This document shows positions 32,689 through 38,223 of a stretch of 64,000 nt of DNA, one piece after another. The stretch comes from Granulicella sibirica. Lineage in GTDB: Bacteria > Acidobacteriota > Terriglobia > Terriglobales > Acidobacteriaceae. A program made the position numbers and the translations under genes. Position 1 is the first letter of the stretch; each line of letters opens with the position of its first letter. The notes under the pieces are model-generated. The model was not told where the DNA came from. It made no database searches and saw only the letters and a program-made list of their open reading frames with translations. Location: contig NZ_RDSM01000001.1 of assembly GCF_004115155.1 (NCBI RefSeq), forward strand, positions 558,001 to 622,000, in the 5' to 3' direction.

Positions 32689-34410
32689 ATGTGGATCAGG
32701 AAGCTTTCTCTTCGGAACTCCCCCGTAGCGCTGATCGTCGCGGCCGCGATTGGATCCATGCTGTTCACGCTTGGCGCGGGCGTGTTTCTCTATCGCAGCA
32801 GCAATAGTTTAATCGCCGCCGCCTCCATGGTCGAGCACACGCAGGATGTGCTGAGTTCGCTGCAGAGTGCCTCGTCGATGGCGGAGCGCGTAGGCACGGC
32901 CTCGCGACTGTATGTGCTCACGAAAGATGAAGAGCAGTTGAACACGGCGCGCGGAAGCCTGGCCTTTTTGCAAACCACCACGGTGCATATCAGGAGCCTG
33001 GTCTCCGATAACCCGAATCAGACCCCGAATGTGGAGCGCCTGGAAGGGTGCGAGGTGAACCTGACCCGTGCGCTGGAGAGACTCCAATCGAACAAGGAGC
33101 TACCGGCGAATCAGCTTCTGGAGTGCCGCAAGACGCTTGGGCTGATGACGGAGTTGGAGCGCCGGCTCCTCAAGATGCGGACCGAACTCTCCGCAAAGAC
33201 CTCATTTGTCTCGATTGCCGGGGAGCTTGCCTTTGTAGGTTTGTCGTTGGCGGCGCTTGCAATTCTGTTTGGGCTTCTGCTGCGGGATGCGCTTAGGCGC
33301 AAGGAAATCGCGCGGGAGGCTGCGCTGGTCAACCAGGAGTTGGCGAAGAGCGTGACGACACTGAAGGACCGAGCGAGTGAGTCTCGACTTCTGACGAGCG
33401 CGCGCGATGAGTTGCAGCTTTGCGTGAATCTGGCGCAGGTGTACCGGGCGGCAGCGACGAGCCTGGCCCAGTTACTTCCAGGGTCCTCCGGTTCTCTGTG
33501 CATGATCAATCACTCGAGACACATTGTAGAAACAGTATCGGAATGGAATGAAGGAGGTACACGATGCGAGGTGCCGGAGATATTTTCCACGGAGGCTTGC
33601 TGTGGGCTGAGGTCCGGGAGGCTGAGATGGAGGAGGACGAAGGTCTCGGAGATACATTGCGACCACTTCCTGCATGGGGCTCCCGCGTGCTACTTGTGCA
33701 TACCGATGGTGGCGCACGGCGAGACGATCGGGATACTGCATATCGAGTGCGGGACTGAGGACGCTGAGTTGCTGGTTGAGCAGAGGATCGACGGGGTAAG
33801 GCAGCTCGTTGAGCTGACGGGCATGGCGGTGGCGTCGCTGCAACTGCGGAATAAGCTCGAAAACCAGTCGGTTCGCGATGGTCTCACCGGGCTCTTCAAT
33901 CGGCACTTCATGCAGATTGCGCTGGAGCGGGAGCTTGCGCTGGCACGTCGACGGCAGAATACGCTCGCAGTGCTGATGGTCGATGTCGACCACTTCAAGA
34001 AGTTCAATGACCTGTTTGGCCATGGAGCGGGTGACTCGGTGTTGAAGCAGGTCTCCGAGGTCTTTCGAGCCAGCGTACGGACCGAAGATATTGTCTGCCG
34101 GTATGGCGGCGAGGAGTTTGCCATCATCCTTCCAGACAGCAGCCCGCTTGGGTCGTACGAGCGCGCTGAGGTGATCCGGCAGAAGATCGCGGAGATGCGG
34201 AAGGCGTCGGACACGGCTTACGGTCAGGTGACTGTTTCGATCGGCGTGGCAGTGTTTCCGCAAGACGGACGGACTGCCGAGACACTCCTGAGAATGTCAG
34301 ACGAGGCACTCTACCGCGCGAAGCGTGCAGGGCGGAACCAGGTGGTGCTGGCCGAGCCGTTCGCGATGGAAGCGATGCAGCTCGAGGAGATCAGCCAGGG
34401 CTCAGCCTAG
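32689..34410 (+). CDS. membrane-bound GAF-GGDEF diguanylate cyclase
   Basis: About 573 aa. Two transmembrane helices (about residues 10-33 and 182-205) flank a helical extracytoplasmic sensor of the four-helix-bundle/CHASE3 type. A coiled segment leads to a GAF domain (about 235-395) with the Cys-rich stretch ACCGLRSGR...HCDHFLHGAPACYLCIPM. The C-terminal GGDEF domain (about 405-560) has DGLTGLFNRHFM, DVDHFKKFNDLFGH and the active-site loop GGEEF. RTED lies five residues before GGEEF, a complete RxxD inhibitory site, so the enzyme should make c-di-GMP and be product-inhibited. Start: ATG with aagaggtg upstream; a TTG eight codons earlier is possible. Its stop overlaps the convergent cysH stop by four bases. 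Confidence 0.93.
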   Translation: MWIRKLSLRNSPVALIVAAAIGSMLFTLGAGVFLYRSSNSLIAAASMVEHTQDVLSSLQSASSMAERVGTASRLYVLTKDEEQLNTARGSLAFLQTTTVHIRSLVSDNPNQTPNVERLEGCEVNLTRALERLQSNKELPANQLLECRKTLGLMTELERRLLKMRTELSAKTSFVSIAGELAFVGLSLAALAILFGLLLRDALRRKEIAREAALVNQELAKSVTTLKDRASESRLLTSARDELQLCVNLAQVYRAAATSLAQLLPGSSGSLCMINHSRHIVETVSEWNEGGTRCEVPEIFSTEACCGLRSGRLRWRRTKVSEIHCDHFLHGAPACYLCIPMVAHGETIGILHIECGTEDAELLVEQRIDGVRQLVELTGMAVASLQLRNKLENQSVRDGLTGLFNRHFMQIALERELALARRRQNTLAVLMVDVDHFKKFNDLFGHGAGDSVLKQVSEVFRASVRTEDIVCRYGGEEFAIILPDSSPLGSYERAEVIRQKIAEMRKASDTAYGQVTVSIGVAVFPQDGRTAETLLRMSDEALYRAKRAGRNQVVLAEPFAMEAMQLEEISQGSA

Positions 34411-35123
34411 CCTTCCTTCTGGGAAAAGGTGTGGATGCCGCACTCTAGCTTGTTGCCACCCCAGCGTCCGCTGCGTGGGTCGGCTCCGGCGGCGGGGATG
34501 GCGGTGCAGGGCTCGCAGCCGATGCTGGTGTAGCCACGATCGTAAAGTTCGAGGCGGGGGATGTTATTGGCCTCGGCGTAGGCGAGGACGTCGGCCCATT
34601 TCCAGTCGGCGAGGATCGAGACCTTCTTCATCTTCTTGCCGGTGGGGGTGGTGTGGTCTTCGACCTTCTTGAGGTTGGCGCGAGTGGGGCTCTGCTCGCG
34701 GCGGAGGCCGGTGAACCACCAGTCGAAGGGCTCGAGCGAGCGCATGAGCGGCTCAACCTTGCGCATGTTGCAGCAACTGGTCGGCTGGACGATGTGAAGC
34801 TTGCCGTACTGGCCTTCGTGCTCTTCGAGGGAGAGAAGAGGCATGGCGTTGATGAGATTCAGGTTCCACTCGCGGGCCATGCGATCGCGGTAAGCGATGA
34901 GTTCCGGGAAGTGGTAGCCGGTTTCGAGGAAGATGACGGGGACGTTCGGTACTTGCTTGCGGAGGAGGTCGAGGACCACCATGTCTTCGGTCTGGAAGCT
35001 GCTGGTGAAGCAGACTGGGGCTCCATCGGCGTCATTGAGTATCTGCTCGACGACCTGCTCGGCGGTGAGGGCCTCAAAGTCGATAGGGGCGAGCCACTCG
35101 GCTACGGATTCGACGAGACTCAT
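34407..35123 (-). CDS. cysH: assimilatory adenylylsulfate (APS) reductase, CysH family
   Basis: A 238-aa thioredoxin-dependent sulfonucleotide reductase producing sulfite. The substrate-binding SSFQTEDMV and ETGYHFPEL blocks are present. PTSCCNMRKVEPL (CC pair) and CEPC (about residue 205) supply the four cysteines for a 4Fe-4S cluster, which marks the APS-reducing subclass rather than the PAPS-reducing one. The catalytic C-terminal cysteine is in LECGIHTF. The ATG has aaggag upstream and lies 21 bp after cysN, so it is third in the cysD-cysN-cysH operon. This fits a pathway that skips PAPS and needs no APS kinase. Confidence 0.95.
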   Translation of the reverse strand: MSLVESVAEWLAPIDFEALTAEQVVEQILNDADGAPVCFTSSFQTEDMVVLDLLRKQVPNVPVIFLETGYHFPELIAYRDRMAREWNLNLINAMPLLSLEEHEGQYGKLHIVQPTSCCNMRKVEPLMRSLEPFDWWFTGLRREQSPTRANLKKVEDHTTPTGKKMKKVSILADWKWADVLAYAEANNIPRLELYDRGYTSIGCEPCTAIPAAGADPRSGRWGGNKLECGIHTFSQKEG

Positions 35124-35144: not shown

Positions 35145-36824
35145 TCAGTTACTTGATTCGGTGGCGGAGGTGGCGGATTCATCGAGGCGCATGGCGTCGG
35201 TGCCGGCAATGGCGAGGGCGGCGGCTTCGATCTCGGGATCCAGAAGGCGGGCGGTGATTGCGATGACTCCGGCTAACTGCAGGGCGCGGACGACGGCCGG
35301 GATGGCGGAGTCCGGGATATCTGGATCGTCGATGAGGACGGCGTGCTCGCCTCCAGCAATGAAGGTGGCGAGGAGCCGTTCGGCATCAAGTGGCCGCCCG
35401 GGCAGGAGGCAGAGTGTCGGACGTGCGGTGATGGCGCTTGTGGCGACAACGGTGTCTGCTTCGACGACATCGAGGATCATGGCAGCGCCGACCGTGGCGT
35501 TGGTGACGGCGTCGATCAGGATAAGGGAGCCGGTCCATCGGCAGTCAGCGTAGGAATCGAAGAAGAGAGGAAGGCTGGTTTCGAATTCGACCTCCGCGAC
35601 CTCGTTCATCGCGAGGCTCTCGGAGGGGACGTGGTCGAGAGTGCCGACGTCGACCTTGAAACGAAGGTCTTTGACAGTGGCTCTAACGGTGCGCGTCGTG
35701 TGCTTGGCGATGTAGGTGCGGCCCGGTACGAGTGGGTCTTCATGCATCCACACAACCATGGCGCGGAAGCGATTGCCGATGTGCGGAAGGGCTGATTCGG
35801 AGCCTGCCTGGACGAGCATCTCGCCTCGGCTGAGGTCGATCTCGTCTTCGAGTTCGACGGTAACACTCTGTGGATAGGAGGCTGCAGTCAGGTCGCCGTC
35901 GTAGGTGACGATGCGCTTGACGACGGATTCGCGGCGCGACGGAAGAGCCATGACACGCTCCCCCGCCCGAAGGACTCCACGGGCGACCTGTCCAGAGAAC
36001 CCGCGAAAGTTCAGGTCAGGACGCAGGACTAACTGGACCGGAAAACGCAACGGAGCCGCATCTTCTTCCGCTTGGCTTGTCGTCGTGCCGAGTGGGACGT
36101 CTTCGAGGTACTGCAGCAGCGTCGGCCCTTTGTACCAGGGCATATTCGTGCTCGGGGCGACCACGTTGTCCCCTTCGAGAGCGCTCACTGGGATCATCGC
36201 CACCGAGGTCAAGCGGAGGCGCTCGGCTAGAGCGAGAAACTCGGCCTGGATCGCCTTGAAGGTCTCTTCCGAGTAGTCGACGATGTCCATCTTGTTGACG
36301 GCAGCTACAACGTGGGGAATACCGAGAAGACTTGCGATGGTTGTATGGCGGCGGGACTGCGGCAGCAACGTGCCAAGGCGGAGGAAGGCACGAGCGTCGA
36401 TGAGCACAATGGCGACGTCAGCGGTCGAGGCTCCGGTGGCCATGTTGCGGGTGTACTGCTCATGCCCGGGGGTATCGGCAATGATGAACTTACGCTTGGC
36501 GGTCGAGAAGTAGCGGTAGGCGACATCGATCGTGATTCCCTGCTCGCGCTCGGCCTTGAGGCCATCGGTAAGGAGGGAGAAGTCGACGTGGCCGTTCGAG
36601 GCGCGGTTGACGCGGCTGCTCGCAACGGCGGCAAGCTGATCTTCGTAGACGCTCTTGGTGTCGTGGAGAAGACGGCCGATGAGGGTCGACTTACCGTCGT
36701 CGACGCTGCCAGCGGTGGTGAAACGGAGCATCTGCTGCCCGAGGTGAGCGGCGAGGAACTGCTCAAAGTGATCGTCGGATCGAAGCGCAGTTTCGGGTTG
36801 AGGTGTGACGACGTGCGTTGCCAT
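35145..36824 (-). CDS. cysN: sulfate adenylyltransferase large (GTPase) subunit with degenerate APS-kinase-like tail
   Basis: A 559-aa translation-factor-like GTPase that with CysD activates sulfate to APS. G1 is GSVDDGKSTLIGRLLHD (about residues 39-55), the switch/G3 is ADTPGHEQYTRNM and G4 is NKMDIVDYS. Elongation-factor-type domains 2 and 3 run to about residue 440. The remaining 115 residues (PTLCLLPGRPLDAERLLATF ... HAVLIDDPDIPDSAIPAVVRALQLAGVIAITARLLDP) follow the order of an APS kinase as in CysNC fusions. However, the P-loop GxSGxGKS is missing and the domain is about half length. The ATG directly abuts the cysD stop, so translation is tightly coupled. Confidence 0.95.
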   Translation of the reverse strand: MATHVVTPQPETALRSDDHFEQFLAAHLGQQMLRFTTAGSVDDGKSTLIGRLLHDTKSVYEDQLAAVASSRVNRASNGHVDFSLLTDGLKAEREQGITIDVAYRYFSTAKRKFIIADTPGHEQYTRNMATGASTADVAIVLIDARAFLRLGTLLPQSRRHTTIASLLGIPHVVAAVNKMDIVDYSEETFKAIQAEFLALAERLRLTSVAMIPVSALEGDNVVAPSTNMPWYKGPTLLQYLEDVPLGTTTSQAEEDAAPLRFPVQLVLRPDLNFRGFSGQVARGVLRAGERVMALPSRRESVVKRIVTYDGDLTAASYPQSVTVELEDEIDLSRGEMLVQAGSESALPHIGNRFRAMVVWMHEDPLVPGRTYIAKHTTRTVRATVKDLRFKVDVGTLDHVPSESLAMNEVAEVEFETSLPLFFDSYADCRWTGSLILIDAVTNATVGAAMILDVVEADTVVATSAITARPTLCLLPGRPLDAERLLATFIAGGEHAVLIDDPDIPDSAIPAVVRALQLAGVIAITARLLDPEIEAAALAIAGTDAMRLDESATSATESSN

Positions 36825-37787
36825 TTAGAAATACCCTTCGCGCTTCTTGACTTCCATGCTGCCTTCTTCGTCGTGGTCGATGGCGCGGTTCTCGCGTTCA
36901 CTGCGGCGGAAGGTCATGAGCTCTTCGATGATCTTGGGCAGGGTGTCGGCTTGGCTGCGCATGGCTCCCGTACAAGGCAAGCAGCCAAGGGAACGCATGC
37001 GGACCTTCTCCGTGAAGATCTTCTCGCCGGGGAAGAGCTTCATGCCGTCGTGATAAAGGGTCATGGCTCCGCCGCGCATGATGATGGGGCGGTCCTGAGC
37101 AAAATACAACGGCACGATCGGGATCTTCTCGGCGTAGAGGTAGAGCCAGATGTCGAGCTCGGTCCAGTTGGAGAGCGGAAAGACGCGGATGCTTTCGCCC
37201 TTGCGCAGGCGGGCGTTGTAGAGGCTCCAGAGTTCGGGGCGCTGGTTCTTGGGGTCCCATTGGCCGGCAGAATCGCGGAAGCTGTAGACGCGTTCCTTCG
37301 CGCGGGATTTTTCTTCGTCGCGGCGAGCGCCACCGAAGGCTGCATCGTATCCGCCGGCTTCTAGGCCGTCCAGAAGCGCGCGGGTCTTCAGCAGGCCGCA
37401 GCAGTTCTGCGTTCCGAGCTCGTATGGATTCGCCCCGCCCGCGATAGCGGCTTCGTTGCGATGCACGACGAGGTCGGCGCCGATCTCCTTCGTGTACGCG
37501 TCGCGGAAGGCGATCATCTCCGGGAACTTGTAGCTGGTGTCAATGTGGAGCAGCGGAAAGGGGATCTTGCCGGGAAAGAACGCCTTCTGTGCGAGCCGGA
37601 GCATCACGCTCGAATCCTTGCCGATGGAGTAGAGCATGACAGGCCGAGCAAATTCAGCGACGGCCTCGCGCATGATCGCGATGGATTCCGCTTCAAGAGC
37701 CTGCAGATGGTTGAGGCGCTCGGGAGCCTGAAGTACAGGCGCGAGAGTCTCGGTTAGAGGTTCGAATTCGGCGGTCTGGTAGGTCAA
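36825..37787 (-). CDS. cysD: sulfate adenylyltransferase small subunit
   Basis: A 320-aa PP-loop (PAPS reductase-like) subunit that forms APS from ATP and sulfate. The nucleotide-binding segment is [22 protein letters not shown] (about residues 50-70). Family blocks [34 protein letters not shown] and [14 protein letters not shown] are intact, and GCLPCTGA sits near the end. The start is a TTG preceded by ggaggg, a strong ribosome site; no ATG or GTG fits better, and the N-terminal [12 protein letters not shown] block follows normally. The upstream 160 bases contain a short Cys-rich ORF (37882-37950) and an extended -10 box. First gene of the cysDNH operon. Confidence 0.96.
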
Positions 37788-37881
37788 CGTGCCCTCCGTC
37801 TCATCGATGCGCCAGGATGACGCCGGCGGAAATAAGACTCTTGGATTGGATGTCAGGGGAGTGCGGCGGATGCAGCAGGCG

Positions 37882-37950
37882 CTAGGAGCGTCGACACGGC
37901 CGATGCTGAGGTTGCGTGCAACAACAACCGAGCTCAGCGCAGAAGGTCAT
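37882..37950 (-). CDS. candidate Cys-rich leader peptide of the cys operon
   Basis: A 22-codon ORF reads [14 protein letters not shown] and ends in P-C-R-R-S-stop. Five of its 22 codons are Cys, including three in a row. It ends 94 bases before the cysD TTG. The ATG lies seven bases downstream of a tatact -10 box, so the transcript would probably be leaderless. Cys-rich leaderless uORFs that sense cysteine by ribosome stalling are known upstream of sulfur genes in mycobacteria; this arrangement is the same in outline. Translation and regulation are inference. In the +1 frame the same RNA encodes [12 protein letters not shown], resembling actinobacterial sulfur leader peptides. Confidence 0.45.
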
Positions 37951-37956
37951 GACTCA

Positions 37957-37962
37957 AGTATA
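37957..37962 (-). promoter_or_regulatory. -10 box of the cys operon promoter
   Basis: tatact on the minus strand, five of six matches to the sigma-70 -10 consensus, seven bases before the leader ORF ATG. The best -35 candidate (ttgccg, minus strand of 37983-37988) has a 20-bp spacer, longer than ideal, which fits a promoter that needs an activator. Confidence 0.45.
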
Positions 37963-38146
37963 GCAATTCGGCCTTCCTGTCCCGGCAAAGGACCGCAATG
38001 GCACTCCCCTGCCCCCGCGAAGGAAGCATTTTCTGCTAGACTCATGGAGACGGTGCGGTGAGTGAGCGGGCTGAAATGCCTGCCGATTCCCGAAGATTCC
38101 ACACGCACCATGCGCCGTCAAACTCCTGTGACAACATGAGTCGGTT

Positions 38147-38223
<77 letters not shown>

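Follow-up and report, generated by a model that had tools for sequence, protein, structure and literature searches.

The window analyzed here is a stretch of 64,000 nucleotides (64 kb) from the Granulicella sibirica genome. It contains a very short, cysteine-rich open reading frame ahead of cysD, and the locus raises the question of whether this frame senses cysteine on behalf of the sulfur assimilation genes behind it. The frame recurs in many soil acidobacteria, and comparison with the corresponding leaders of relatives makes it highly probable that a cis-acting cysteine attenuator precedes cysD-cysN-cysH. The sensing half is read from sequence; we infer the stalling step and the direction of the response from known leader-peptide systems.

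The upstream ORF (uORF) occupies 37882..37950 on the minus strand, from an ATG at 37950 to a TAG at 37882, and is recognized from the letters and from its counterparts in relatives. The original prediction described 22 codons with five Cys codons, three of them consecutive, and this is what the locus contains: Cys is encoded at codons 4, 9, 10, 11, and 19, with codons 9 to 11 (TGT TGT TGC, 37918..37926, minus strand) as the proposed stall site. A gap of 94 bases separates the uORF stop from the TTG start of cysD at 37787, and the Shine-Dalgarno (SD) sequence of cysD, GGAGG, lies at 37793..37797 (minus strand). NCBIfam models name the genes that follow on the same strand as cysD (36825..37787, sulfate adenylyltransferase subunit 2), cysN (35145..36824, sulfate adenylyltransferase subunit 1), and cysH (34407..35123, phosphoadenylyl-sulfate reductase), confirming the predicted position of the uORF before a sulfur assimilation operon.

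A −10 hexamer, TATACT (37957..37962, minus strand), stands 6 nt 5′ of the uORF ATG, in agreement with the placement predicted for a leaderless transcript. A possible −35 element, TTGCCG (37983..37988, minus strand), is weak and has a spacer of 20 bp, compared with 17 bp in 15 of 17 relatives of the window's clade; the alternative GGGACA, also a weak match, would leave a spacer of 15 bp. Because both spacings are unusual, the promoter assignment is uncertain, and a consensus promoter scan of 37700–38150 returned no site. Across the 17 clade relatives, the distance from the end of the −10 element to the ATG is 6 to 10 nt (6 or 7 nt in 12 of them), and an SD-like motif precedes the uORF in a single leader. 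The window uORF probably has a leaderless start as judged from these letters. The eight leaders of the TTGACA subclade and 13 leaders of family f7 have no SD-like motif, and their −10 position is scattered, which makes a leaderless start less clear there. According to the accessible part of one survey, leaderless genes are predicted in all three acidobacterial genomes included, at a mean of 13.3% of genes (PMC3160421).

The relatives' genomes were drawn evenly rather than exhaustively. A whole-genome search found cysD in 31 of 36 same-genus relatives; the same search returned no match in G005, G007, G016, and G027 and only a weak one in G008. Counterpart uORFs with at least three Cys codons, including two adjacent ones (CC), were present in 29 of the 31. 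The counterpart in L013 has three Cys without CC, and L116 has no counterpart uORF. The alignment of acidobacterial cysD leaders that had been proposed as a check of the idea thus came out in its favor, with the ORF retained throughout most of the genus and Cys at codons 9 to 11 in most of the clade.

At the level of the class, 125 of 200 genomes gave a CysD match, weak in a few cases, and 60 loci were taken: all 16 from other genera of family f1, all 19 strong-match loci of family f7, 17 of the 38 from family f6, one each from f4, f8, and f9, and five further loci of the same genus. The uORF was found in 14/16 loci of the other genera of the family (L174 and L187 lack it), 5/5 of the additional same-genus loci, and 16/19 loci of f7; it was absent from all 17 f6 loci and from the three of f4, f8, and f9. 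Family f2 had it at 2 of 7 cysD loci. On named genome contigs it occurred at 15 of 29 acidobacterial cysD loci and at 2 of 44 from other phyla, counts that are not additive with those of the genome search because the two sets overlap in organisms. The positive named loci include Terriglobus albidus (L036), Granulicella sp. dw_53 (L053), Acidobacterium sp. S8 (L054), and a Silvibacterium metagenome-assembled genome (MAG; L061). L051, named gp6, has both uORF and terminator; being a MAG, it is possibly misplaced. L035, a near relative at 84% CysD identity, has no uORF. A protein search with CysD listed Granulicella pectinivorans and Edaphobacter among the names at 85–92% identity. Loci with short upstream sequence were left out of the counts (L126, 25 nt; L042, L057, L063, L072, L084, L085, and L091, less than 400 nt), and L204, with 210 nt, was entered as a miss.

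What is conserved is the position of Cys and not the peptide, the rest of which drifts. Among the 18 clade peptides (window included), Cys stands at codon 9 in 14, at codon 10 in 16, and at codon 11 in 16; for groups B2 and D, which are related and contribute 11 leaders, the corresponding numbers are 8, 11, and 11. The assigned uORFs of relatives contain 3 to 12 Cys and range from 13 to 36 aa. TGT accounts for 331 of 421 Cys codons in the uORFs of 73 relatives, 3 of 5 in the window uORF, and 101 of 169 in the reductase uORFs described below, compared with 53 of 215 in window genes, a rough contrast since this background is the window of one genome. In one subgroup (L055, L060–L062, L179, L185, and L186) the peptides are similar, following the pattern CC(C/R)LS....DGC, and the coding RNA can make several alternative strands with ACGCACCC and a weak CCGGGT hairpin. 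These leaders resemble a four-strand attenuator, with pairing above shuffles in just one of the seven.

Such an ORF might arise by chance in a promoter region. We applied a fixed rule (ATG or GTG start, 10–45 aa, at least three Cys including CC, and TANNNT 4–9 nt before the start), and over the whole 64 kb, searched on both strands, the cysD uORF was its sole match. Among 35 window genes encoding 200 aa or more, a Cys-rich ORF lies in the 400 nt ahead of two, and with the −10 element cysD alone is left. Without the −10 element, the rule matches within 400 nt upstream at 31 of 32 genus loci (window included; L013 passes through an ORF other than its counterpart uORF), versus 9.4% of dinucleotide shuffles and 7/32 loci on the opposite strand. 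With the strict TANNNT rule, 14/32 loci match, versus 1.3% of shuffles and 4/32 on the opposite strand. These simple rules have a known false-positive rate, and the counts are not independent because the loci share ancestry. In the own genome, 17 loci, a few of its genes, were checked; 13 had enough upstream sequence, and they yielded one chance-like ORF (L165) and none with a −10 element. The seven PALP loci among the 17 had no convincing uORF, the matches at L163 falling within the gene frame. A profile of 25 uORF peptides retrieved the window ORF alone from the own genome (E ≤ 10), a match that is not independent because the window peptide is part of the profile; the profile also missed the own reductase uORF, one of its members, and is therefore insensitive. 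The rates in shuffles and on opposite strands are what a chance origin can draw on, and the counterparts in nearly all same-genus relatives, with Cys at fixed codons, already disfavor it and leave it extremely improbable.

The uORF might instead encode a small Cys-rich protein with a job of its own, such as metal or redox binding. Five Cys in 22 residues, and as many as 12 in the uORFs of relatives, would suit such a protein. However, the peptide drifts outside the Cys run, its length varies more than twofold, and in relatives the antiterminator strands overlap the 3′ end of the uORF, all of which renders this reading very unlikely.

Many relatives carry what appears from sequence to be a full attenuator consisting of uORF, antiterminator, and intrinsic terminator. 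By rule, 37 of the 74 cysD leaders to which a uORF was assigned have an intrinsic terminator (L190 and L211 share uORF and upstream bases, and L190 alone entered this count), including 16/16 leaders of f7 and, in the window's genus, 8/8 of the TTGACA subclade. In 18 of 34 strong-terminator leaders the uORF 3′ end pairs with the left arm of the terminator at p < 0.05 versus shuffles; the combined p of 1e-14 for the antiterminator is overstated because the leaders are related. When 17 leaders (16 of f7 and L040) were aligned, in-register pairing of the antiterminator held in 108 of 134 cells, versus 34–51% when shifted, a comparison that favors the true register over the shifted controls because it was taken from one row (L202). 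Changes on both sides of the antiterminator occur in f7 (CG/TA, CG/GC), and the terminator stem also shows changes on both sides.

A probable second target lies at what is presumably the sulfite reduction step. Upstream of a NirA-like sulfite/nitrite reductase gene in the same genome (G000:C3, about 633840–633700; L254, L137) lies another Cys uORF, probably leaderless and followed by a clear intrinsic terminator: the uORF MPQVSNAPLCCRRCLAQA is accompanied by the hairpin GCCCACTCTTCAGAGTGGGC and TTCTTTCTT ahead of the reductase. The own-genome reductase scores best with NirA-family models, below their cut-offs, and it presumably acts on sulfite. Its leader folds at z −1.0 relative to shuffles. 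The same-genus PF01077 loci are the best matches of 30 of the 39 genomes in which one was found, and 28/30, the own genome included, are preceded by a Cys-rich uORF; the exceptions are L147 and L156, the latter entered as a miss because its matches lie inside the gene only. In these 28 leaders a distance of 6 to 9 nt separates the −10 element from the start, the −35/−10 spacer is 17 in 25, and no SD-like motif is present. A terminator was called by rule 19 to 49 nt past the uORF stop in 25/28, the own genome included. It is visible by eye in L134 and L154, and a looser hairpin pattern occurs in 27/28. Pairing tests for an antiterminator in 27 reductase leaders gave a mean z of −0.15, with none resolved. 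Some of the reductase leaders L127–L155 share the motif AGCAAAGC, placed after the uORF stop and ahead of the terminator; as a candidate antiterminator it was not supported by the pairing test.

The same arrangement extends to reductases of other families. Among 20 such loci, chosen for frames of about 550–625 aa (longer, shorter, and a few similar-length forms were left out), the uORF is present at 10, namely at f1 3/3, f7 5/7, f5 2/2, f6 0/6, f4 0/1, and f11 0/1, and each of the 10 has a terminator. The f6 loci examined are without the uORF at both cysD and the reductase and form a natural negative control. Since the reductase of the window's own genome has a second Cys leader with a terminator, sulfate reduction in that cell would respond to Cys-tRNA at two steps. 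The own genome gave no match to a SulP-type sulfate transporter and none above the cut-off to CysE; sulfate may be taken up, and serine acetylated, by other proteins.

The output step of the cysD leader differs in the window's clade. No intrinsic terminator lies between uORF and cysD in the window, and the rule called one in 1 of 18 clade leaders, a weak one in L015 (2/16 with a looser rule). The predicted fold of the 163-nt window leader is about as stable as that of its shuffles (z 0.08). Over the 18 clade leaders, the uORF 3′ end pairs with the gap no more than in shuffles (mean z +0.3 and +0.4), and the same holds for the Cys run (mean z −0.05). We also considered sequestration of the cysD SD by the uORF: the best fold of a longer form of the window's leader seems to bring the uORF 3′ end together with the SD/TTG region, but this pairing is not seen in the aligned relatives and modelled stalls have little effect, and this candidate was rejected. 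The original claim of a cysteine-sensing attenuator is supported, with the qualification that in the window copy neither a shared terminator nor an antiterminator nor a stall-dependent release of the SD was found.

Two explanations of this output step were weighed. One is Rho-dependent attenuation, in which a C-rich tract would load Rho unless the leader ribosome stalls. The 60 nt after the uORF stop (37822..37881, minus strand) are C-rich and G-poor (43% C, 18% G) and make a candidate Rho loading tract. The excess of C over G in this stretch averages +12.1 in the 18 clade leaders, each having at least +8, compared with +4.8 in 28 terminator-group leaders and +0.2 in 17 f6 leaders without uORF. 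The own genome encodes Rho, and Rho has been proposed for mycobacterial cys leaders, at least in the accessible text of PMC1262725. The argument is compositional, however. In the window, 3% of 60-mers equal or exceed the C-over-G of its leader, and for single clade members the share is 1.6 to 17%. Moreover, groups B2 and D, which are mostly terminator-free, share the excess (+10.2), so it may merely mark leaders that lack a hairpin. A stall at codon 10 would leave the C-rich tract uncovered, so the Rho version comes without a worked-out switch. We regard Rho-dependent attenuation in this clade as possible and hold it tentatively.

The other explanation is translational, as in mycobacteria, with the stalled ribosome blocking an RNA structure that would otherwise hide the cysD ribosome-binding site. 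The combination of a Cys-run uORF and a sulfur target matches the mycobacterial cases, as far as the accessible text of their reports goes (PMC4633059; PMC9031893). In L029, L115, L118, and L190, the cysD SD lies within a local hairpin, ACTCC-CTCT-GGAGT; its presence in the first three speaks for ribosome-site control, and the sequences suggest a translational platform in this subclade. Modelled stalls, however, leave the SD closed in most leaders, the window included, where the openness of the cysD ribosome site is 0.24 free versus 0.20 stalled. Of 26 leaders modelled, 23 gave a start codon (L190, L182, and L184 gave none, and the starts assumed for L188 and L189 look wrong), and in most the openness of the SD hardly shifts with ribosome position, L007 and L010 being the clearest exceptions. 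Together with uORF-to-gap and Cys-run-to-gap pairing no higher than in shuffles, these results make the translational form rather unlikely for the clade. The evidence suggests that Rho is favored over ribosome-site control as the output half in the window.

The mechanism that we propose is as follows. Transcription would start at or beside the uORF ATG, and a ribosome would load on the 5′ end and read the uORF. When Cys-tRNA is scarce, it would stall in the Cys run at codons 9 to 11. In the complete form found in relatives, a ribosome stalled there would leave the 3′ segment of the uORF exposed, and this segment could base-pair with the left arm of the hairpin, so that no terminator would form and the operon would be transcribed; with ample cysteine, the ribosome would reach the stop codon and cover that segment, allowing the terminator to form. 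In the window's clade the sensor is kept and the intrinsic terminator of cysD is absent, and Rho-type termination or another platform would have replaced it. As a broader reading, which we offer as a conjecture with somewhat more doubt than confidence, Acidobacteriota may possess a cysteine regulon of their own, comprising two operons that are each headed by a leaderless Cys uORF. Within one genus, the cysD leader would then have retained its sensor half while a Rho-type or other platform replaced the intrinsic terminator as its output half, and the sulfite reductase of that cell would still have the terminator form. Having leaders with and without a terminator side by side in one genus would allow the rewiring of a leader-peptide sensor to be tested in a natural setting.

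A trp-type ribosome-mediated transcription attenuator combines regulatory codons with alternative antiterminator and terminator structures. The acidobacterial relatives share both features with it; the differences are the use of cysteine, the probably leaderless start, and the lack of a terminator in the window copy. The mycobacterial nirA gene encodes a sulfite reductase. In mycobacteria, the accessible text of Shell 2015 places leaderless Cys-rich uORFs before cysA2, Rv0485, and nirA (PMC4633059). Polycysteine leaderless short ORFs (sORFs) are described by Canestrari 2020, as related in passages of citing papers (PMC9031893, PMC9094748, PMC13236596), one of which uses the term translation attenuation (PMC13236596). 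The likeness to the acidobacterial leaders, within what these sources cover, comprises the probable leaderless start, the Cys run, and the sulfur targets, including nirA there and a NirA-like gene here; the acidobacterial leaders differ in belonging to another phylum and in that many copies have an intrinsic terminator and antiterminator.

The original prediction took the locus to extend the mechanism far beyond its known mycobacterial range. A comparable leader in acidobacteria is supported, but that range was already wider, covering P. acnes, B. longum, and Rhodobacterales. Cys leader peptides without terminators were predicted before cys operons in Mycobacterium, P. acnes, and B. longum, in the part of PMC1262725 that is accessible. 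As described there, these actinobacterial cys/cbs leaders resemble the window's clade in having Cys runs in a short ORF, no conserved terminator, and a suggested role of Rho; they differ in that the runs lie near the stop codon, versus mainly codons 9 to 11 of about 22 in the clade. The Rhodobacterales cysS leader uORFC-8-2, in the available text of PMC8632094, has tandem Cys codons and an intrinsic terminator as the terminator-bearing relatives do; its target is a tRNA synthetase, and its start is not given there as leaderless. A 2016 paper on leader genes that covers Acidobacteria does not mention cysteine in the portion of its text that is accessible (PMC4833913). Among the literature matches listed, with subscription journals mostly outside the coverage, there was no report of a cysteine attenuator in Acidobacteriota.

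Two further features of the surroundings were noted. Of the families in Rfam 15, only tRNA matched in the window, and likewise in ten loci (E ≤ 0.1); a tRNA-Pro (CGG) gene at 38147–38223 lies on the other strand and points away from the cysD leader. Downstream, CysN has a C-terminal extension of about 100 residues: the model matches stop near residue 461, and the listed NCBIfam models do not reach beyond it.
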